From: Acidobacteriota bacterium
GTDB lineage: Bacteria; Acidobacteriota; Aminicenantia; JBFLYD01
Direction: 5' to 3'
NCBI GenBank assembly: GCA_040756905.1
Contig: JBFLYD010000043.1
Location: forward strand, 1 to 64,000
DNA length: 64,000 nt
Below, piece by piece: positions 209 to 48,101 of the stretch. The translations under genes were made by a program, and so were the position numbers. The notes under the pieces are model-generated. The model did no database searches, had not been told where the DNA came from, and saw only the letters and a program-made list of their open reading frames with translations. Position 1 is the stretch's first letter; the number at the start of each line of letters is the position of its first letter.

Positions 209-2419
209 ATGTTAGAAATATTGCAGGGCACAATAGAAAAAATAATCTATGAAAACTCAGAATCAGGATTTGCAATTTTAAAGCTAAAAGAATACGAAAA
301 AGGAGATGAAATTACTGCTCTTGGAAATTTTCCATCAGTTAAAGAAGGAGAACATGTAAGGATTGAAGGAGAATGGATTGTATCGCCAAAATATGGAAAA
401 CAATTTAAAGTCCAGAAAGTTGAACTTTTAATTCCTTCCTCGAAAAAAGGGATTGAAAAATTTTTAGCCTCCGGATTGATAAAGGGAATCGGAAATAAAT
501 ATGCAAAAAAAATTGTTGAAAAATTCGGAGAAAGAACAGTCGAAATCCTTGATAAAAGTCCTGAGGAATTAAAAAAAACCTCTGGAATCGGCGAAAAAAA
601 ATTAGAGCTAATAAAAAATTCCTGGAATAAAGAGAGAGAAAAATTCAGAATAATCTCTTCGATTCAGGAATTTGGTATATCAATAAATTTAGCCCTGAAG
701 ATTTATAAATTCTATAAAAATAATTCACTCGAGGTGATCAAGAATAACCCTTATCAGCTTGCTCTTGACATCTGGGGAGTTGGGTTTAAAACAGCTGATA
801 AAATAGCGCTATCCCTTGGGATTGACCCAAAATCTTTCATAAGAATAAAAGCATACATTCTATATTTAATGGAAGAAGATTTGTCAGAAGGAAATGTCTT
901 TTCCATTAAAAATAGTCTCATAAAAAAAGCAGCAAAACAGCTGGAAGTTGAAGAAGAGGAGATAGGAAGGGCTGTAGAAGAATTAAAAAGAGAGAAGCTC
1001 GTCATCGAAGAACCTATAGCATCAAATTTGAGACCAAATGAGTTTATGAAATCCTCATCTGAAATTTTGACCGCTGAATTAGAAACTTATCAAAAAGCGT
1101 TATATCTTCCGTTTTTTTATAAGATTGAAAGAGAGGTGGCTGAATCAATCCTGAACCTTCTTTCATATCCGAAACTTTTTAAAAATATCGATGTGTCAAA
1201 ATGGATTGAAGAAACAGAAAAAGAGATGGGAATCGAATTTGCAGAGAAACAGAAAGAAGCGATAAAAAAAGCTATAGATGAAAAAGTTATTATAATAACA
1301 GGGGGACCTGGCACGGGAAAAACAACTCTCATAAGAGCAATCTCAAAAATATACAGGAGCATGGGAAAGCTTGTGGTATTGTGTGCTCCAACAGGAAGGG
1401 CGGCAAAAAGATTGGGGGAGACATCCGGTGAGGATGCAAAAACAATACATAGACTTCTTGAATACAGACCCCAGGAAAATAGGTTTTTCCGCAACGAAAA
1501 TAACCCATTAAAAGCAGACCTTGTTGTGATAGATGAGTTTTCAATGGTGGATCTCCCACTTTTTTATAATTTGGTAAAGGCGATTCCTTCCTGGACAAGT
1601 CTTTTAATAGTAGGAGATAAAGACCAGCTTCCCTCTGTTGGTCCCGGTAATGTATTGAAAGATATAATTGAATCAAATGCCATTCCTGTTGTTGAACTTA
1701 ATGAAATATTCAGGCAGGCTAAAAAAAGTATGATTGTTTTGAATAGTCACAGAATCAGACGGGGAGAGTTTCCTTATCTTCCAAAAGATGACACCTATGA
1801 CTTTCAATTTATTCCTGAGGAGGACGAGAACGAAGTGTATAAGAAAATTCTTGAACTCTCTGAAACGATTCCAAGGAAATACGGTTTTGAATCAATTTCA
1901 TCGGATGTTCAGTTAATATCTCCGATGTATAAAGGAATTATAGGAGTTGATAATCTAAACAGAGCCCTTCAGAAATTATTGAACCCCAGCGGGAAAAAAA
2001 TCTCAGAGATTCCATTCCACCAGGGAGATAAAGTGATGCAAATAAAAAATAATTACGATAAAGAAGTATTCAACGGAGATATGGGAAAGGTAATGGACAT
2101 AAGCGAGAGGAGGATGAGAGTAAAATTTGAAGATAGGGAGATTGAATACGGAAGGGAAGAATTTGATGAGTTGGTTCTATCCTATGCAATATCCATTCAT
2201 AAATCCCAGGGAAGCGAATATATAGCCTGTATAATTCCCCTTCTAACACAGCATTATATAATGCTTCAGAGGAATCTCCTCTACACAGCTTTAACAAGAG
2301 CAAAAAAATTGGCGATTATAATTGGTTCAAAAAAAGCTCTCTTCATTGCAATAAGGAACAATAAACCCCTTAAAAGAAATACAAACTTATCTACTCTCCT
2401 CCAAAAAGGTGTTGGATAG
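209..2419 (+). CDS. recD2: RecD2-type ATP-dependent DNA helicase (SF1B)
   Basis: The 736-residue protein has the RecD2 layout: an N-terminal OB-like region, helix-hairpin-helix repeats at about 80-200 (GIGNKYAKKIVEKFG, then GVGFKTADKIA), and a helicase core. Walker A GGPGTGKTT is near residue 365, Walker B VVIDEFSMVD near 440, and the C-terminal motif SYAISIHKSQGSEY near 660. RecD2 is a 5'-3' helicase that, unlike RecD, works without RecBC; none of recB, recC, addA or addB is in the window. The length is normal for the family. The gene is alone on the plus strand and is followed by repeats. Confidence 0.95.
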   Translation: MLEILQGTIEKIIYENSESGFAILKLKEYEKGDEITALGNFPSVKEGEHVRIEGEWIVSPKYGKQFKVQKVELLIPSSKKGIEKFLASGLIKGIGNKYAKKIVEKFGERTVEILDKSPEELKKTSGIGEKKLELIKNSWNKEREKFRIISSIQEFGISINLALKIYKFYKNNSLEVIKNNPYQLALDIWGVGFKTADKIALSLGIDPKSFIRIKAYILYLMEEDLSEGNVFSIKNSLIKKAAKQLEVEEEEIGRAVEELKREKLVIEEPIASNLRPNEFMKSSSEILTAELETYQKALYLPFFYKIEREVAESILNLLSYPKLFKNIDVSKWIEETEKEMGIEFAEKQKEAIKKAIDEKVIIITGGPGTGKTTLIRAISKIYRSMGKLVVLCAPTGRAAKRLGETSGEDAKTIHRLLEYRPQENRFFRNENNPLKADLVVIDEFSMVDLPLFYNLVKAIPSWTSLLIVGDKDQLPSVGPGNVLKDIIESNAIPVVELNEIFRQAKKSMIVLNSHRIRRGEFPYLPKDDTYDFQFIPEEDENEVYKKILELSETIPRKYGFESISSDVQLISPMYKGIIGVDNLNRALQKLLNPSGKKISEIPFHQGDKVMQIKNNYDKEVFNGDMGKVMDISERRMRVKFEDREIEYGREEFDELVLSYAISIHKSQGSEYIACIIPLLTQHYIMLQRNLLYTALTRAKKLAIIIGSKKALFIAIRNNKPLKRNTNLSTLLQKGVG

Positions 2420-2433
2420 TTTTTTAATTAAAC

Positions 2434-2588
2434 TAACACAAACGAATTAAATAAATTGACATGTAGGGCATGGCTTTAGCCATGCATTAAGCAACCTCCG
2501 AATCAACCCATGAAACAAGTCCAGGGCAAGGTTCGGGGCAGGCTCTGAAGGGTTGCCCTACAAATTATTTATTGCTTTTGTATTAACA
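2434..2588. repeat. Family C intergenic element, copy C1
   Basis: The unit is about 155 bp with imperfect terminal inverted repeats. The left end reads AACACAAACGAATTAAATAA and the right end, reversed, AATACAAAAGCAATAAATAA. Inside are TAGGGCATGGC near the left end and GGTTGCCCTA near the right end, plus a conserved core containing AACCCATGAAAC. Related copies lie at 11291-11430, 23971-24124 and 59783-59937, with fragments elsewhere. It encodes nothing and resembles a MITE. Confidence 0.75.
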
Positions 2589-2610
2589 CATGTTCACAAA
2601 CTTTTCACGC

Positions 2611-2655
2611 AAAAATGCAAAAAATGGGGTCAGGTCTTATTTTTTGCATTTTTTT
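2611..2655. repeat. Family B (REP) palindrome, orphan copy B1
   Basis: AAAAATGCAAAAAA and TTTTTTGCATTTTT arms flank GGGGTCAGGTCT. The same sequence forms both ends of the transposase element at 43595-44678. It lies 3' of the PIN toxin gene and could act as a terminator or mRNA-end hairpin. Confidence 0.8.
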
Positions 2656-3510: not shown

Positions 3511-3690
3511 TAGTGTGATGTCTCATAAATCTCTTTCCAGACAAACAATTTCTCATAAAGCACACTGAAGGGGTATGGGGAAGGAACTTCCCCAGCCTGG
3601 GGAGCAAAGCGTCTAAGGAGATCTTTCTCCCATAGGGAAAGTGTCATGTCACAATAATATAATGAAAGGTATTTAAGTGACATGACACTA
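3511..3690 (-). repeat. Family A structured element, copy A1
   Basis: The unit is 180 bp and flanked by TA on each side (CTAGTGTG...GACACTAG). Hairpin 1 pairs GTGTCATGTCAC with GTGACATGACAC at 3628-3688. Hairpin 2, at the other end, pairs AGTGTG with CACACT. The middle carries the conserved blocks CCCATAGGGAAAG and GGGGTATGGGGAAG. The minus-strand gene at 3688-4506 takes its TAG stop from the end of this element. It is inverted relative to A2 on the other side of that gene. Confidence 0.85.
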
Positions 3691-4506
3691 GATGCTGTGG
3701 GGGATAAGGAATAAGATAAGGGTAAATATTGCTCCTAAAATCACAAGCTTTGCAAAAAGCTTTGAATCGATTTTTTTGAATTTATAAACAAGAAGGGCTA
3801 AAAGCCAGTAAATTAGAATTATTAAAGTTTTATTATCAGTTATATCCATTCCAAAAGGGATCCCTGTCCAGGCTTTCCCATATACTTCATAGGCAATCCA
3901 CCATCCAATCGGAAACCCGGTAATAAAAAACACAACCAGAGCAATTAACACAGAATTAGTCATCTTGGAAATCGTTTCATTTTTATCATCACCAAAAAGA
4001 TGAAGTAAAGAAAAATAAAGCGAATGAATCAGTATGAACAAAGCAGTCATCATAAGTGTGATATGGAACAAAGTCCCCACTTTTGAAACTGACCCTTCAT
4101 GCTTTATGAAATATAAATTTTTCGGAGCATTTTTCGGAAGAATAATTTCTTTTCCTTCCCTATCCTTTGCCTTGAAAAAAAAGTAAGTTCTTTCTCCCTT
4201 TGGCTTTCCTTTTAAATTGTAAAAATAATAATCTGTACCTTGAAGTTGGGTCATGGTAAAAGTCTCAAATCCTTTCTCTTTCCTTAAATTTAATGTAACT
4301 TCTTCTGCACCGATAGGGGATGAAGATTTTACCTGAATCAGCTTGTCCTTTTTTTCAGGCTGCTCGTCTCTATGAACATATGAGATATAAAAATTTCCAT
4401 TCATTGAAATTTCTGTTGGGTTTTTTATCAAAGTGGCTAAATAGATAAAAAAACCTATAAAAGAAATAAAAATTATTATGGCTCTTGCCTTTCTTTCTAT
4501 ACTCAT
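3688..4506 (-). CDS. Hypothetical membrane protein
   Basis: I do not recognise this 272-residue protein. It has an N-terminal membrane segment (about residues 8-25), an extracytoplasmic region of about 120 residues rich in beta-type sequence (TYFFFKAKDREGKEI, reminiscent of an immunoglobulin-like fold), then about four hydrophobic helices. The start has a good ribosome-binding site (GAGGAGG, 4 nt before ATG). The stop codon lies in the terminal bases of repeat A1, so the original C-terminus may have been trimmed. The gene is bracketed by two inverted family A elements. Confidence 0.7.
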   Translation of the reverse strand: MSIERKARAIIIFISFIGFFIYLATLIKNPTEISMNGNFYISYVHRDEQPEKKDKLIQVKSSSPIGAEEVTLNLRKEKGFETFTMTQLQGTDYYFYNLKGKPKGERTYFFFKAKDREGKEIILPKNAPKNLYFIKHEGSVSKVGTLFHITLMMTALFILIHSLYFSLLHLFGDDKNETISKMTNSVLIALVVFFITGFPIGWWIAYEVYGKAWTGIPFGMDITDNKTLIILIYWLLALLVYKFKKIDSKLFAKLVILGAIFTLILFLIPHSI

Positions 4507-4608
4507 CTTGCCTCCTCTATTTTAAAAAAAGATTTTATAAGAAAAAATTTAGATTATCAAACAGAACCTTTAAAAATTAATAGAAAAGCACAAATATTTG
4601 TTCCATTC

Positions 4609-4788
4609 TATTGTCGTGTCACTTAAATATCTTTTGTTATTCCTTTGTGACACGACACTTTCCCTATGGGAGAAAGATCTCCTTAGACGCTTTGCTCCCC
4701 AGGCTGTGGAAGTTCCTTCCCCATACCCCTTCAGTGCGCTTAAGGAGAAATTCTTTGTCTGTAAAGATATTTATGGGACAGCACACTA
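4609..4788 (+). repeat. Family A structured element, copy A2
   Basis: The unit is 180 bp. Hairpin 1 has TGTCGTGTCAC pairing with GTGACACGACA, which differs from A1 in both arms so that pairing is kept. The middle block TTTCCCTATGGGAG is followed by hairpin 2 (AGTGCGCT with AGCACACT, one G-T pair). It is oriented opposite to A1. Confidence 0.85.
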
Positions 4789-4936: not shown

Positions 4937-5019
4937 CAAAAAGCAAAAAGGGGACAGGCTACTTTTTCACACGCAAAAATGCAAAAAACAAGACCTGACC
5001 CCATTTTTTTGCATTTTTA
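4937..5019. repeat. Family B (REP) palindromes, copy B2
   Basis: Two neighbouring REP-like units are present: a variant with GGGGACAGGCTAC (4949-4961), and a full copy with AAGACCTGACCCC between A-rich and T-rich GCAAAAA/TTTTTGC arms (4973-5019). The second ends on the stop codon of the minus-strand gene at 5017-7176 and may end its transcript. Confidence 0.75.
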
Positions 5020-11002: not shown

Positions 11003-11032
11003 GTTATAGGGAACGCTAAAAATAAATAGATG

Positions 11033-25761: not shown

Positions 25762-28700
25762 TTATATTTCAATCTCTTCTTTTTTGGCCTCAAACCAACC
25801 ATACAATGTGGGAAGGACTAAAAGCGTTAATAAGGTAGAAGTTATCAATCCTCCAACAACCACTACTGCCAGAGGACGCTGCACTTCAGAACCAGGTCCT
25901 TGGGCAAAAAGAAGCGGGATTAGACTGAATATTGTGATAGAAGCTGTCATCAATACTGGACGGAGACGATGCTCACAAGCTTTTATGATAGATTCTCTTA
26001 AAGGCATTCCTTCTTGACGAAGCTGGTTAATGTAAGAAACCAACACAATACCATTTAAAACTGCTACTCCGAATAATGCAATAAATCCAACTGATGCAGG
26101 TACTGAAAGATAGAGGCCTGATATAAACAATGCTACAACTCCTCCTATCAAAGCAAAAGGCAGGTTCATAATAACAAGGATTGCTAATTTTATTGAATTA
26201 AAAGTCACAAACAAAAGAAAAAAGATAAGCCCTATGGTTATTGGAACAATAACCATTAATCTTTTCATAGCCCTTTGCTGACTTTCGAACTGTCCACCCC
26301 AGGTTATATAATAACCAGTAGGAAGCGTTACATTTTCTTTTATTTTACGTTTTGCTTCAGAGACAAAACCTCCAATATCCCTTCCATGTATATTGCATTC
26401 TATTCCTATGCGCCTCTGGGTATTTTCCCTGCTTATCTGGGCAGGTCCTTCAACAAATGAAATATCCGAAAGCTGGCTTAATGGTATTTTAAAACCATGG
26501 GGAGAATTTACTAATATATTTCCGATTGTGGATATTGAATTCCTTTTTTCTTCAGGAAATCTTATCAAAACGTCAAAGTATTTTTCACCTTCATACAGCT
26601 GAGTTGCAGGCTTTCCTCCTATTGCTGTTTCGATAATCATTTGCACATCATCGATGTTTACTCCGTACCGTGCTATCTTTTGACGATCTACACTTACAGA
26701 GAGATAAGGTTGCCCAGAAACTCGTTCGACAACGAGGTCTTCTACACCTTTAATTTTTGATAAAACTCTTCCGATTTCATCTGCCTTATTTTTTAACACC
26801 TCTAAACCCTCTCCAAATAGTTTTATGATTATCTGTGCTCGAGTTCCAGCAACAACTTCGTCAATCCTGCAGGCAATTGGTTGACTGAATGAAAAAGTTA
26901 TCCCAGGAAGTATTGACAACGCATCTCTCATCTTTTGAGTTAATTCTTCTCTTTTTTTAGCGTTCTTCCATTCAGAACGGGGCCTGAGAGTCCCCACAAA
27001 ACCAGTCCTTTCCACTCCCCTTGCTTCTATAGCTATACCAGTTTGACCTGTTCTTGAAACAACAGTTTCCAATTCAGGGAATTTCATAAGGGTCCTTTCA
27101 ACTTCTTTGCTTATCTCCAATGACTTTGGTAGAGAAATTCCAGGTAATAATTGTACATCCATATCAAATGCACCTTCATCCATTATAGGAATAAATTCTG
27201 TGCCCAATGGAGGGATTAAATATAAGGTGAAAAGAAGGAGTATACCTGCCGAGATAAGAATAATAGCTTTATGGTTTAATCCCCAGCGTAAAACAGGCAA
27301 ATATATTTTTTTTGCCCAATGAATCAAAAAAATTTTTTTCTCAGCTCCTGATTTTAATATCAAAGAGCAAAATACTGGGATAACAAAAATTGAAAGGATA
27401 AGAGATGAAAGAAGAGCTATTGTAACTGTGAAGGCCAGCGGAGTGAACATTTTCCCTTCTATTCCTTGAAGTGTCATTATTGGAATAAATGTTAATGCGA
27501 TAATCAATTCTCCAAAGATACTTGGCTTCATCACCTCTAAAACTGCCCTAAGCACAGTTGATAATTTGTGCTTCGATGCATCTGATTCTGAGTGATGTCT
27601 CTGAACATTTTCAACCTGTATTATTGTAGCATCTATTATCATCCCAATGGAAATTGCCAAACCACCAAGGGACATGAGGTTTGCTGTAAGTCCAGTGTGT
27701 TTCATAACGATAAATGTACATAGAGCAGATAGAGGAAATGCAAAAATAACAATCAGGGCACCACGGAAACTTCTTAAAAATAGATAAAGAACAAAAATTA
27801 CAAAAATTGCGCCTTCTTGCAATGCTTTTGTAACAGTGTGTATACTCTTCTTTACGATGTATGATCTTTTGTAAAAAGGCTTTATTTTCAATCCCTTAGG
27901 AAGAATGTTGCTTTCATTTATTTCTTCCACTTTTTTCTCAACCATTTCAACAACTTCACGACTGTTACTTCCCCGAAGCATCATTACTATTCCGCCCACA
28001 ACTTCTTTTTCACCATTTTTTACAGAAGCACCCTGGCGAACCGCCTGCCCAATTTCCACATCTGCCACATCGCGCATAAATACAGGAATTCCATCCCGGG
28101 ATTTTAAAACGATGTTTTCTATATCTTTTACTGATTGTAAGAGTCCTATGCCCCGGATTAAATATTGTTGGGAGTATCGCTGAAAAATATTCCCTCCTAC
28201 ATTCCGATTATTTCTTTTCAATCCTTCAACCACATCATCAAGGGAAATATCGAATTTCAGCAATTTATCTGAATCTGCATACACCTGATATTGTTTTATG
28301 TAACCTCCAAATGAATTAATTTCATTAACCCCTGGAATTGTTTTTAAAATAGGGCTTATAACCCAATCCTGAATCGTTCGCAATTCTGTTAAATATCTAA
28401 TCCTATCCGTTTCATCATCAGGTTCATTTCCTTCTAATGTGTACTGATAGATTTCACCCATGGCAGTTGATACAGGCCCCATCGAAATATCCACGCCTTC
28501 CGGTACTTTCTCTTTTGCCTCGATTAACCTTTCCAATACAAGCTGTCTCGCAAAATATATGTCGACATCATCTTCAAAGACCACAGTAACAACAGATAAA
28601 CCGAATCTGGAAACCGAACGTATTTGAGTCAATCCTGGTAGACCTCGCATTGCTATTTCAATTGGATAGGTAACAAATTTTTCAACCTCCAGAGGAGAAC

Positions 28701-28866
28701 GACCCGGTGCGGTGCTCAAAATTTCTACCTGAATGTTTGTTACATCAGGAAAGGCATCGATTGGAAGTCTCATGAAAGAATAAATTCCCAATGTAATCAA
28801 CAATATTACAACCACTATAATCATAAGTTTTTGATTTAATGAAAAAGATATTATTTTTTCAATCAT
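25762..28866 (-). CDS. czcA: Heavy-metal RND efflux pump, inner-membrane subunit
   Basis: The 1034-residue protein is a full-length HME-RND transporter with 12 predicted helices and two large periplasmic loops. Proton-relay helix 4 reads ISIGMIIDATIIQVEN near residue 408. The DFG aspartate of zinc/cobalt/cadmium pumps is replaced by Ser, as in CusA-like pumps, so the czcA symbol is by family only. The trimer works with the adaptor (28899-30173) and TolC-like channel (30373-31605). Its ribosome-binding site GGAGG touches the end of repeat A3. Confidence 0.93.
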   Translation of the reverse strand: MIEKIISFSLNQKLMIIVVVILLITLGIYSFMRLPIDAFPDVTNIQVEILSTAPGRSPLEVEKFVTYPIEIAMRGLPGLTQIRSVSRFGLSVVTVVFEDDVDIYFARQLVLERLIEAKEKVPEGVDISMGPVSTAMGEIYQYTLEGNEPDDETDRIRYLTELRTIQDWVISPILKTIPGVNEINSFGGYIKQYQVYADSDKLLKFDISLDDVVEGLKRNNRNVGGNIFQRYSQQYLIRGIGLLQSVKDIENIVLKSRDGIPVFMRDVADVEIGQAVRQGASVKNGEKEVVGGIVMMLRGSNSREVVEMVEKKVEEINESNILPKGLKIKPFYKRSYIVKKSIHTVTKALQEGAIFVIFVLYLFLRSFRGALIVIFAFPLSALCTFIVMKHTGLTANLMSLGGLAISIGMIIDATIIQVENVQRHHSESDASKHKLSTVLRAVLEVMKPSIFGELIIALTFIPIMTLQGIEGKMFTPLAFTVTIALLSSLILSIFVIPVFCSLILKSGAEKKIFLIHWAKKIYLPVLRWGLNHKAIILISAGILLLFTLYLIPPLGTEFIPIMDEGAFDMDVQLLPGISLPKSLEISKEVERTLMKFPELETVVSRTGQTGIAIEARGVERTGFVGTLRPRSEWKNAKKREELTQKMRDALSILPGITFSFSQPIACRIDEVVAGTRAQIIIKLFGEGLEVLKNKADEIGRVLSKIKGVEDLVVERVSGQPYLSVSVDRQKIARYGVNIDDVQMIIETAIGGKPATQLYEGEKYFDVLIRFPEEKRNSISTIGNILVNSPHGFKIPLSQLSDISFVEGPAQISRENTQRRIGIECNIHGRDIGGFVSEAKRKIKENVTLPTGYYITWGGQFESQQRAMKRLMVIVPITIGLIFFLLFVTFNSIKLAILVIMNLPFALIGGVVALFISGLYLSVPASVGFIALFGVAVLNGIVLVSYINQLRQEGMPLRESIIKACEHRLRPVLMTASITIFSLIPLLFAQGPGSEVQRPLAVVVVGGLITSTLLTLLVLPTLYGWFEAKKEEIEI

Positions 28867-28881
28867 CTTTATTCTACCTCC

Positions 28882-29067
28882 AGTGTCATGTCACTTAATT
28901 ATCCTTCGTTACTTTCTTGTGACATGACACTTTCCCTATGGGGGCAAGCCCCCCTTAGACGCTTCGCTGAGCACCCCCCAGACATGGGGAAGCCTCTTCC
29001 CCATGCCCCTTCGGAGCGCTGAGGGAAAAATTGCTTATCTTTGAAGTGATCTACTGAACCGCGCTCC
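28882..29067 (+). repeat. Family A structured element, copy A3 (inside efflux operon)
   Basis: Hairpin 1 pairs GTGTCATGTCAC with GTGACATGACAC (28883-28930). Hairpin 2 pairs GGAGCGC with GCGCTCC (29061-29067), where other copies have AGTGTGC/GCACACT, so both arms changed together. The unit covers the last ~55 codons of the adaptor gene and ends against the pump gene's GGAGG. Confidence 0.8.
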
Positions 29068-30173
29068 AGTGTCTTTTTAAGAAGTTCTGATTTGAGAATG
29101 AAACTGCCTTCAGTAGCAATAATATCACCAGTTTTTAAACCATTCACTATCTCAATAAAACTATCTAATTTTAATCCTGTTTCTATCTCTTTGACTGAGA
29201 AAGAATTGTTCCCAGATTGGAGAAAAACTACTTTTTTACCTTCTAAATCTTGAACTGCAATTTCTGGAATTAAAAGCGATTTTGATTCTGAAGGAAAAAT
29301 CAAGTTAACTTCAGCGTACATCCCAGGCTTTAACTTTCCTGATTTATTCATAACTTCAACCCTTCCTTTTACAGTGCGAGTATTTTTATCTACCACATCG
29401 CTTAAAAGGGTGAGTTTTCCTTTAAATTCTTCATTGGGAAAAGCACTGACTCTTATCAAAGTCTTGCATCCCTGTTTGATTGAAGATAGGTCTTTCTCGT
29501 ATATATTAACGTTGACCCATAGAGTGGATATATCTGCGATTTTAAAAAGACTCGTGCCCGTATCAATGTAGTCTCCAGTAACAACATTACTTTCAATAAT
29601 GCTTCCATTAAATGGAGCTCTTATTGGCAGAAGGAATTTTATCGAATGAGTTTTTTCCAATTCAATTAATTCTTCTTCTCTTATATTTAACAAAATTAGT
29701 TTATTCCTTGCAGAATCAAGAAGGGATTTGGCATTTTGTCTCTCTTCTTCATCGTTATTTTTCATTACTCTTTTCAATCTTTCTTCAGCTTGAATAAATT
29801 CCGCCTGGGCAGAAAGAAAATCCGGACTATAAATGGAAAGAAGCAATTGACCTTCTTTAACTTTATCTCCTGGAAAAGCGAAAACTTCTTCAACTCTTCC
29901 TGATACTCTCGATGTTATATTTACAAACTTTCTTTGATTGAAAGAAATTTCGCCAACCACTTTAATTCTCTGGGAAACTGTCCTCAACTGAACAATGTCT
30001 GTTTTTATCCCAGCTATTTTTAAAGCATCCTCTGAAAGAGTAATGGTAGATCGAGCATTTTCTTCTGCATTCTCTGTATCAACCTCTTCGGCTTTTTTCT
30101 TATTGCATCCATATAAAAAAAGGGTAAAAGCTAAAATCATCAAAATATGTATAAGATAAGGATTCTTCTTCAT
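28899..30173 (-). CDS. czcB: RND periplasmic adaptor (HlyD/CzcB family) lipoprotein
   Basis: The ATG at 30173 follows AGGAGG by 5 nt and begins a lipoprotein signal ending LFLYGC. An open frame continuing upstream to 30380 is only repeat A4 and is excluded. The barrel-sandwich/hairpin layout is visible: ISFNQRKFVNITSRVSGRVE, FPGDKVKEGQLLLSIYSPDF, LPIRAPFNGSIIESNVVTGD and MYAEVNLIFPSE. The normal end is near LLKKTLERGS; the last ~50 residues (FFPQRSEGAWGRGFPMSGG) are encoded by repeat A3 and look non-native. It links pump and outer-membrane channel. Confidence 0.92.
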   Translation of the reverse strand: MKKNPYLIHILMILAFTLFLYGCNKKKAEEVDTENAEENARSTITLSEDALKIAGIKTDIVQLRTVSQRIKVVGEISFNQRKFVNITSRVSGRVEEVFAFPGDKVKEGQLLLSIYSPDFLSAQAEFIQAEERLKRVMKNNDEEERQNAKSLLDSARNKLILLNIREEELIELEKTHSIKFLLPIRAPFNGSIIESNVVTGDYIDTGTSLFKIADISTLWVNVNIYEKDLSSIKQGCKTLIRVSAFPNEEFKGKLTLLSDVVDKNTRTVKGRVEVMNKSGKLKPGMYAEVNLIFPSESKSLLIPEIAVQDLEGKKVVFLQSGNNSFSVKEIETGLKLDSFIEIVNGLKTGDIIATEGSFILKSELLKKTLERGSVDHFKDKQFFPQRSEGAWGRGFPMSGGCSAKRLRGACPHRESVMSQESNEG

Positions 30174-30182
30174 TTTACCTCC

Positions 30183-30370
30183 TAGTGTTGTGTCACTTAA
30201 ATACCTTTCCTTATTCTTATGTGACACAACACTTTCCCTATGGGAGAAAGCCTCTCCCTGGACGCTTCGCTGAGCACCCCCTGACATGGGGAAGCCTCTT
30301 CCCCATACCCCTTCAGTGTGCTGGAAGAGAGACCGTCTGCCTGCGAAGATATTTAAGGGACAGCACACTA
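30183..30370 (+). repeat. Family A structured element, copy A4 (inside efflux operon)
   Basis: The 188-bp unit is bounded by CTAG on both sides and fills the gap between the channel and adaptor genes. Hairpin 1 is GTGTTGTGTCAC/GTGACACAACAC and hairpin 2 AGTGTGCT/AGCACACT. On the mRNA, hairpin 1 ends directly before AGGAGGT of the adaptor gene. Confidence 0.88.
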
Positions 30371-30372
30371 GA

Positions 30373-31605
30373 TTATTCATAATCCTCTCCAGCTACTTCC
30401 AAGTCAGCAAGAGAAACAAGATAAAAGTAAAGGGATCTCAAATATTCAAGCTTTGTAAGTGTATACGTACGATAGAGGTCTAAAAGATTAAGGGCATCGA
30501 TTTTTCCATATTGATAATTGTGGATGCCAATTTTGAGTTGATCCTCGGCCTCTCTGAGAAGTTTTTGCTCAAACACCTTTACCTGCTCCTCTGCTGCTTT
30601 CACTGACGAATATGCATTCTCTAATTGTGTCATTATTCTTCTCTCTATGGCTTCTGAAGAAATTAGGTTTATCTGTTTTGTTGCCTCTGCTTCGAGTATT
30701 AGCCCTTTCTGTCTCTTCTTCCAATAAACCGGAATAGAGAATCCAAACACTACTCCCCCTGCCCCTGTCCGTAAACTCGGAAAGAAAAATTCCACAGAAA
30801 AATCAGGATAAAAACTCATATTTGAAAGCCTCAAGCCAGCATTGGCCTGTTCGAGCTTTAATGCAGCAATATAAAGGGAAGGTCTTGTCCTTTTAGCCTC
30901 TTCTTTGATCTTAGAAAAGTCTTTCTCAAAGGGAATAAAAGAAATATCTGTCAGCAAATGTAATGGTTCATCTCCCTTTCTTCCAAGAAGAAGATTCAAA
31001 TAAGACTTATCTACTTTCAATTCTTTTTTAACCTCAATTAATTGATTCTGTATTCTTGCCTTTTCTACTCTTGCACGAAGAACATCAAGATAGGGAACCA
31101 TTCCCACTTGATATTTGATGTTTGCATTATCGATAAATTCATCAAGGAGACCTAAAGTAGATTCAAGAGTTGAAATAGTCCTCTGACTTAAAATAGCTTT
31201 ATAATATGCTCTCTTTACCCCAGCTTTAATTATAATCTCTATCCTTTCTAATTCAAAAAAAGATATTTCTTCTCCATATTTTCCAATTTTTCCTCTAAGA
31301 GACCTTTTTCCGGGAAACTCAAGAAACTGCTGGATTCCGAAACTTATCTCTCTCTCAGTTCCATTCCTGGAAATTCCACCCATTGGAATACCTTCGTCGC
31401 TAAAAGCTATTTCCGGGTCAGGAATGGCTTCCATTTGCAATCTTTTGCCCAATGAAACATTCAGTTCTCCCTTAGCAGAAAGAATCTCTGGGTTCTGTTT
31501 CATAGCGATATCAATTGCCTGCTCGAGGGTAAGACCTTCCTCTCCTTTAACTATACACCATGAAAAAAGGAGAACAATTATCAATAAATAATTAATTAAT
31601 CTCAA
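30373..31605 (-). CDS. czcC: TolC-like outer-membrane channel of the efflux system
   Basis: The 410-residue protein has a signal peptide (YLLIIVLLFSWCIVKG) and two OEP repeats (LTLEQAIDIAMKQNPEILSA; VPYLDVLRARVEKARIQNQL; AYSSVKAAEEQVKVFEQKLL). This fits the CzcC/CusC type. A TTG start with GGAGG 6 nt upstream is used. It is the first gene of the channel-adaptor-pump set. Confidence 0.9.
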   Translation of the reverse strand: MRLINYLLIIVLLFSWCIVKGEEGLTLEQAIDIAMKQNPEILSAKGELNVSLGKRLQMEAIPDPEIAFSDEGIPMGGISRNGTEREISFGIQQFLEFPGKRSLRGKIGKYGEEISFFELERIEIIIKAGVKRAYYKAILSQRTISTLESTLGLLDEFIDNANIKYQVGMVPYLDVLRARVEKARIQNQLIEVKKELKVDKSYLNLLLGRKGDEPLHLLTDISFIPFEKDFSKIKEEAKRTRPSLYIAALKLEQANAGLRLSNMSFYPDFSVEFFFPSLRTGAGGVVFGFSIPVYWKKRQKGLILEAEATKQINLISSEAIERRIMTQLENAYSSVKAAEEQVKVFEQKLLREAEDQLKIGIHNYQYGKIDALNLLDLYRTYTLTKLEYLRSLYFYLVSLADLEVAGEDYE

Positions 31606-47549: not shown

Positions 47550-48101
47550 TTTTATTTAAATTAAGAGGTCAACCATCCCCTTCACTCAGAGGTTTTAGAG
47601 TAATCAGCAAGGGTGACTCCGAAAACCCGCTGTATTTTCCCCATCAAAGTGTCGCCTCACCTGAATACTCTTTGCTGTATCATTGTGAGACGACACTTTC
47701 CCTATGGGGCAAGCCCCCTTAGACGCTTCGCTGAGCACCCCCAGACATGGGGAAAATATCTTCCCCATACCCCTTCAGTGTGCTTTATGAGAGATATTTC
47801 TTCTTTGAAGATACATATGGAAAAGCACACTTCAAAATTACAGCTCTTAACTCTGTCTTCGCTCTTCTCTTCCGATATCCATCGGGAGAGAAACCATGCC
47901 CGCTCCGCATTCGTGACGGTTTTCTCCGCCACCCTTCCTGCTCACTCTTTTATGTTCAGTGTTTAGAATTTGCTGTTTCTTAGGTATTTAGATGCTCGTC
48001 GATATATCGCTCAGAAGATGGTTGACTTCTTTAAGGCATTCAGATGTGACCCTAATTTTCTGATCACCCTTGCTGCTCAAGTTATTAACCGCCAAAAAAC
48101 C
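47550..48101. other. Gene-free 550-bp gap with crossed inverted repeats and repeat A5
   Basis: GTCAACCATC (47568) pairs with GATGGTTGAC (48017), and CAGCAAGGGTGA (47605) pairs with TCACCCTTGCTG (48064), in crossed order. Family A copy A5 lies between them. The rest is unannotated; frames through it are short and repeat-derived. Confidence 0.5.
47648..47831 (+). repeat. Family A structured element, copy A5
   Basis: The 184-bp unit is bounded by AAGTGT and ACACTT. Hairpin 1: GTGTCGCCTCAC with GTGAGACGACAC (one mismatch); hairpin 2: AGTGTGCT with AGCACACT. The middle blocks TTTCCCTATGGGG and TTCCCCATACCCCTT are conserved with the other copies. Confidence 0.85.

Follow-up and report, generated by a model that had tools for sequence, protein, structure and literature searches.

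Family A, a repeat present in five near-complete copies in the window (the whole 64,000-nucleotide stretch of Acidobacteriota DNA analyzed), is best explained, with a probability of roughly 0.85, as a MITE-like element that inserts at TA, is moved in trans, rebuilds stop codons and is tolerated in frame. Its copies duplicate a TA target site, in part use the stop codons of host genes and display covarying hairpin arms together with reassorted modules. Within protein genes, inserts that keep the frame can be recognized at the sequence level.

Anatomy, target site and distribution of family A

The first-pass annotation had placed near-complete copies at positions 3511, 4609, 28882, 30183 and 47648, and all five are present: A1 (3511–3692) on the minus strand, inverted relative to A2 (4608–4788), A3 (28881–29069), A4 (30182–30371) and A5 (47647–47832) on the plus strand. 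In the same order, the repeat sequence was confirmed at 3512–3690, 4610–4787, 28882–29064, 30183–30369 and 47648–47831. With A4 as a BLASTN query, the 2.56-Mb genome gave 48 matches, some of them fragments; profile searching of the retrieved loci yielded 54 near-full-length copies, which aligned with a mean pairwise identity of 83%. Copies also lie near the ends of contigs C30, C38, C47, C58 and C63, so the copy number is probably underestimated. Standard copies measure 172–199 bp net, short ones 87–94 bp and long ones about 340 and 369 bp; as expected of a MITE, the element is short, occurs in many copies and carries no transposase gene.

The ends of the element, TA|GTGTCRTGTCACTTAAATAYCTTT and AAAGATATTTATGGGACAGCACAC|TA, form an imperfect inverted repeat around a core reading GTGTC...GCACAC. 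This terminal inverted repeat follows a shared, imperfect 24-nt consensus with GTGTSSTGTCMCWTAAATATCTTY at both ends, a pattern matched 175 times compared with five for a reversed control. The left end pairs with an internal copy to give hairpin 1 (13 bp), and the right end likewise gives hairpin 2 (8 bp). In A4 (all plus strand), the left TA (30183–30184) is followed by the 5′ arm of hairpin 1, which is also one terminal inverted repeat (30184–30196), its 3′ arm (30221–30233), the inner arm of hairpin 2 (30315–30322), the outer arm, which is also the other terminal inverted repeat (30362–30369), and the right TA (30369–30370). The stretch between the end hairpins holds alternative middle hairpins, such as GGGAGA..TCTCC or GGGGGC..CCCCC, and the long copies contain other hairpin cassettes. 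The inner arm of hairpin 1 is missing from short copies at several loci; a pair of these copies, at different loci, has one identical deletion junction. With script-assigned module labels and uncorrected p values, the two ends of the element were associated with each other (p = 0.001 and 0.01), as were the hairpin arms (p < 0.001), whereas arms and middle modules were not (p = 0.23–0.75); copies therefore exchange modules.

A2 lies inside another dispersed repeat, with four other copies at the same point of that repeat. The unfilled site (L068:2270-2386) reads ATTC-TA-TTTTT, with a single TA, whereas the filled site reads ATTC-TA[TTGTC..GCACAC]TA-TTTTT, with two, and a C precedes the TA in 18 of 29 cases. 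Some copies stand in tandem, head-to-tail, abutting at their ends. A mobile element had been one of two readings offered by the first-pass annotation, and it is borne out by the TA duplication with its unfilled site, the terminal inverted repeats, the dozens of copies and the tandem arrangements. Three transposase profiles (DDE_3, IS630 and DDE_Tnp_1) gave nothing in the genome, whose 69-contig assembly may lack such a gene, and no IS630 or DDE_Tnp_1 source element was found. Insertion at TA is common to family A and IS630/Tc1-mariner; the search detected no IS630-type transposase, so we did not file family A as a member. The terminal inverted repeats, the tandem copies and the lack of any transposase of the three profiles therefore point to a MITE-like, non-autonomous element, presumably mobilized in trans. 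A transposase acting in trans would move it into TA dinucleotides, preferably those preceded by C, and insertion plus TA duplication would commonly add 186 bp; both inverted-repeat ends would in addition form hairpins by folding back, and middle hairpins would be exchanged between copies.

Insertion into the TA of a stop codon rebuilds the stop, because each element end reads TAG inward. In 14 of 66 copies, the TAG of the element exactly ends an ORF of at least 100 codons, the TA of the stop codon having been used and rebuilt as TAG. A1 is one of these 14, its TA+G being the TAG stop codon of the ORF at 3688–4506 (minus strand). The non-coding TAs of the window give an expectation of about 4%, against which this usage has a p of about 6e-8; assuming 8% raises it to 2e-4. 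The null rests on simple ORF calling in this single 64-kb stretch.

Family A shares the genome with other repeats. A5 is nested in a larger composite repeat common to L028, L033, L058 and L066, in which the nested family A copies have like ends and differing middle hairpins. Other dispersed palindromic families occur in the window at 2485, 11338 and 24023, at 11027 and 34445, and at 4974 and 43594; at L048, one copy of the 11027 type is apparently inserted in a long family A copy. Outside this genome, no family A DNA was detected in 39 other class-level genomes and no family A peptide in 395 other genomes of the phylum. Collections of genomes and of viruses likewise contained no exact match to the core. 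For one host gene, the closest named homologues (68% and 65%) belong to Candidatus Aminicenantes, so the genome itself appears to come from this group.

Covariation of the hairpin arms and its cause

The hairpin 1 arms that had been quoted for the window copies proved correct, down to the one C.A mismatch of A5, and covariation of these arms is significant across the genome-wide alignment of 54 copies. Overall, 94.7% of stem cells were paired. Changes on both sides affected 52 cells, compared with 18.1 ± 3.2 in shuffles, none of 500 reaching 52, although the shuffles ignore the relatedness of copies and 52 is not a count of independent events; sliding the structures by 1–3 columns left 0–26 such cells. 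The pair changes in hairpin 1 include C-G to U-A, G-C to A-U, G-C to U-A, G-C to C-G and U-A to A-U.

The reported two-arm change in hairpin 2 of A3 was likewise found, with GGAGCGC at 29013–29019 and GCGCTCC at 29061–29067 (plus strand). A3 and A4 lie in an efflux operon encoded on the minus strand. A4 is located between an outer-membrane efflux gene (30373–31605), upstream, and the gene for a CusB/CzcB-type adaptor of 424 residues (28899–30173), ending just before the GGAGG of the latter; a CusA/CzcA-type RND transporter (25762–28866) lies downstream of A3. Adaptor homologues end near residue 373, at ...LKSELLKKSLEGE, whereas the window protein runs about 50 residues further through A3, the minus strand of which encodes its C-terminal tail, a coding role that the first-pass annotation does not mention. 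On that strand, the outer arm of hairpin 2 overlaps CTG GAG, the conserved Leu-Glu near the C terminus of adaptor homologues, and the inner arm pairs with it. The outer-arm bases are thus probably host codons, and a templated rewrite of the inner arm would be the simplest account (mechanism in PMC8794818).

Because short copies without the inner arm have spread and the A3 change looks templated, a mutational cause of the covariation by template switching (PMC8794818) appears at least as likely as structural selection. In this mutational reading, to which we give even odds, template switching in quasi-palindromes would be the main source of covariation, rewriting either arm to match its partner while the fold itself is not selected; the reading concerns the cause of the covariation only and is compatible with a mobile element. 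Template switching can both create and maintain hairpins (PMC8794818), and the most variable pair has five unpaired cells compared with two G.U intermediates. However, A3 is the one clear case, and the mismatches could also come from recombination between subfamilies. The arms may thus be kept matched by templated correction of quasi-palindromes, by selection for the fold or by both.

The other reading offered by the first-pass annotation, selection on an RNA or cruciform structure, fared less well than the mobile element, given that short copies at two loci have lost the hairpin 1 inner arm and that the A3 change looks templated. We consider it improbable that family A is retained for its hairpins, as a structured regulatory RNA or cruciform acting on neighboring transcripts. 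The excess of covariation over shuffles, strong predicted folds on both strands (z = −4.8 and −3.8) and the frequent position of copies between co-directional genes (++ 24 versus -- 12) would fit such an element, but several loci hold the short copies, and others occur inside coding genes, inside other repeats and in both orientations. An Rfam search of the window returned only two tRNAs and no match above the gathering score for family A, and a known RNA family was rejected accordingly. A terminator or attenuator in the efflux operon was also rejected, as neither A3 nor A4 contains a terminator-like site. Nor is the proposed wiring into that operon specific, since family A also lies next to or within genes of other kinds, among them those for glycosidase, pilin and BadF-type ATPase.

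Family A inside protein genes

The commonest net insertion is 186 bp, that is, 62 codons. One of the six frames of the element, the NTA codon frame in minus orientation (VCCPINIF...SDTTL, 62 codons), is open, so insertions there lengthen a protein rather than break it. Among standard copies, 15 of 54 combine this open frame with a length divisible by three, including all five recognized as read through end to end inside a likely gene; genic copies were recognized by long open frames, which favors open frames and makes the contrast with other copies partly circular. At least three proteins are interrupted in the open frame, one of them cleanly when compared with homologues from several phyla. 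This protein, L076, is the only one for which alignment with homologues removes the open-frame bias cleanly; for L073, L075 and A3, ragged alignments around the insert make the removal less exact. The L076 protein matches G002 at residues 19–295 and 359–864, with 3 nt between the two matches, and homologues from three other genera (53–68% identity) are continuous or almost continuous across residues 295|359. The class-level homologues covering this point and 11 named homologues from several phyla are without the insert. AlphaFold2 predicted insert residues 295–354 as a low-confidence segment (pLDDT below 50) between two confidently modeled domains, a beta-sandwich and a helical barrel. The L075 protein has two in-frame inserts and the L073 protein one, at points where homologues are shorter and poorly aligned.

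Judged by ORF, further in-frame cases are L065 (signal-peptide end), L077 (pilin leader) and L078 (N terminus). In L077:3520-4329, the 62-codon insert lies in the pilin-like leader just before KGFTLIEV, and prepilin processing there would remove it. The open frames at L014, L015 and L071 were left out of the genic set, since they probably extend upstream from genes whose starts lie past the element. At contig ends, long-cassette copies adjoin DUF5107/TPR genes (L071 and L070), and the L070 TPR protein (780–2642, minus strand) has a second kind of insert (SPSPPHQVRGRLQSSPLRGEGGVRG), in frame at about residues 167–209 and apparently window repeat D9.

The inserts are presumably translated. Neither ribosome bypass nor splicing of the inserts would need the recognized genic copies to be in frame, a weak argument against both because these copies were found as long ORFs. 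Substitutions in the open copies show no excess at the third codon position (104/67/84), so no maintenance of the peptide at the protein level is visible. That it is a functional domain or localization tag under protein-level selection is very unlikely: every recognized genic copy uses the same frame and the long cassettes keep it open, but the substitutions, the disorder predicted for the insert in the one model made and the non-coding location of most copies stand against it. Tolerance would instead act as a filter on the copies that survive. Since the open frame and stop regeneration spare the host gene, surviving copies would lie in intergenic DNA, within stop codons or other repeats, or, in frame, within spacer-tolerant protein segments.

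In the 340- and 369-bp cassettes the same frame also stays open, for which first-order resampling gives a chance of 0.0004–0.0008 per cassette, although the 340-type copy used is itself genic and the open-frame bias is avoided only in the 369-type pair. Possibly, then, although we would put it below even odds, the lineage has adapted to genes, with stop-regenerating ends and a frame open through the middle cassettes (62, 114 and 123 codons). If true, family A would be selfish DNA that is compatible with genes and has been through coding sites repeatedly.

Family A among known repeats

Several known repeats resemble family A in part. Rickettsia palindromic elements (RPE) are small hairpin repeats that occupy intergenic sites and, in frame, unrelated protein genes (PMC10969869, PMC2229807), as does family A, which lies in frame in L076, L075 (two copies) and L073, by homologue alignment, and in intergenic DNA. 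The likeness is one of behavior, and the host belongs to a different phylum. Family A further differs in its demonstrated TA duplication, marked unknown for RPE (PMC2229807), and in its variable middle modules, long and short versions and own hairpin at each end. ERIC/RU-1 of enterobacteria is similarly MITE-like, with TA termini, target duplication, an open frame and some ORF fusions (PMC2759123, PMC2229807), among them an amidase, a dehydrogenase and many hypothetical ORFs, but measures 127 bp with a 7-bp terminal inverted repeat; the literature available to us contained no description of stop-codon regeneration for it. The pneumococcal RUP shares the TA termini and is presumed to be mobilized by IS630 (PMC3049150, PMC2229807), but has stops in all six frames (PMC2229807), in contrast to the one open frame of family A. 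BOX, also pneumococcal, has conserved end and variable middle modules (PMC3049150, PMC2229807), varying by the number of boxB modules whereas family A varies by alternative hairpins. CIR of Caulobacter likewise joins two separate long stem-loops by a linker, but every frame of it carries stops and it has not been found within genes (PMC2229807). Each of the five thus shares at least one feature with family A, and the combination was not found in the portions of this literature available (PMC10969869, PMC2759123, PMC3049150, PMC2229807).

A 2024 review treats Rickettsia as the case of unusually frequent in-frame small mobile repeats and considers the same conceivable elsewhere (PMC10969869). 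Family A is an example from another phylum, its logic visible as TA target, stop regeneration and one open frame in six. Whether in-frame inserts are merely tolerated becomes testable with it, and its many-copy hairpins offer material with which mutational and selective causes of covariation may be separated.
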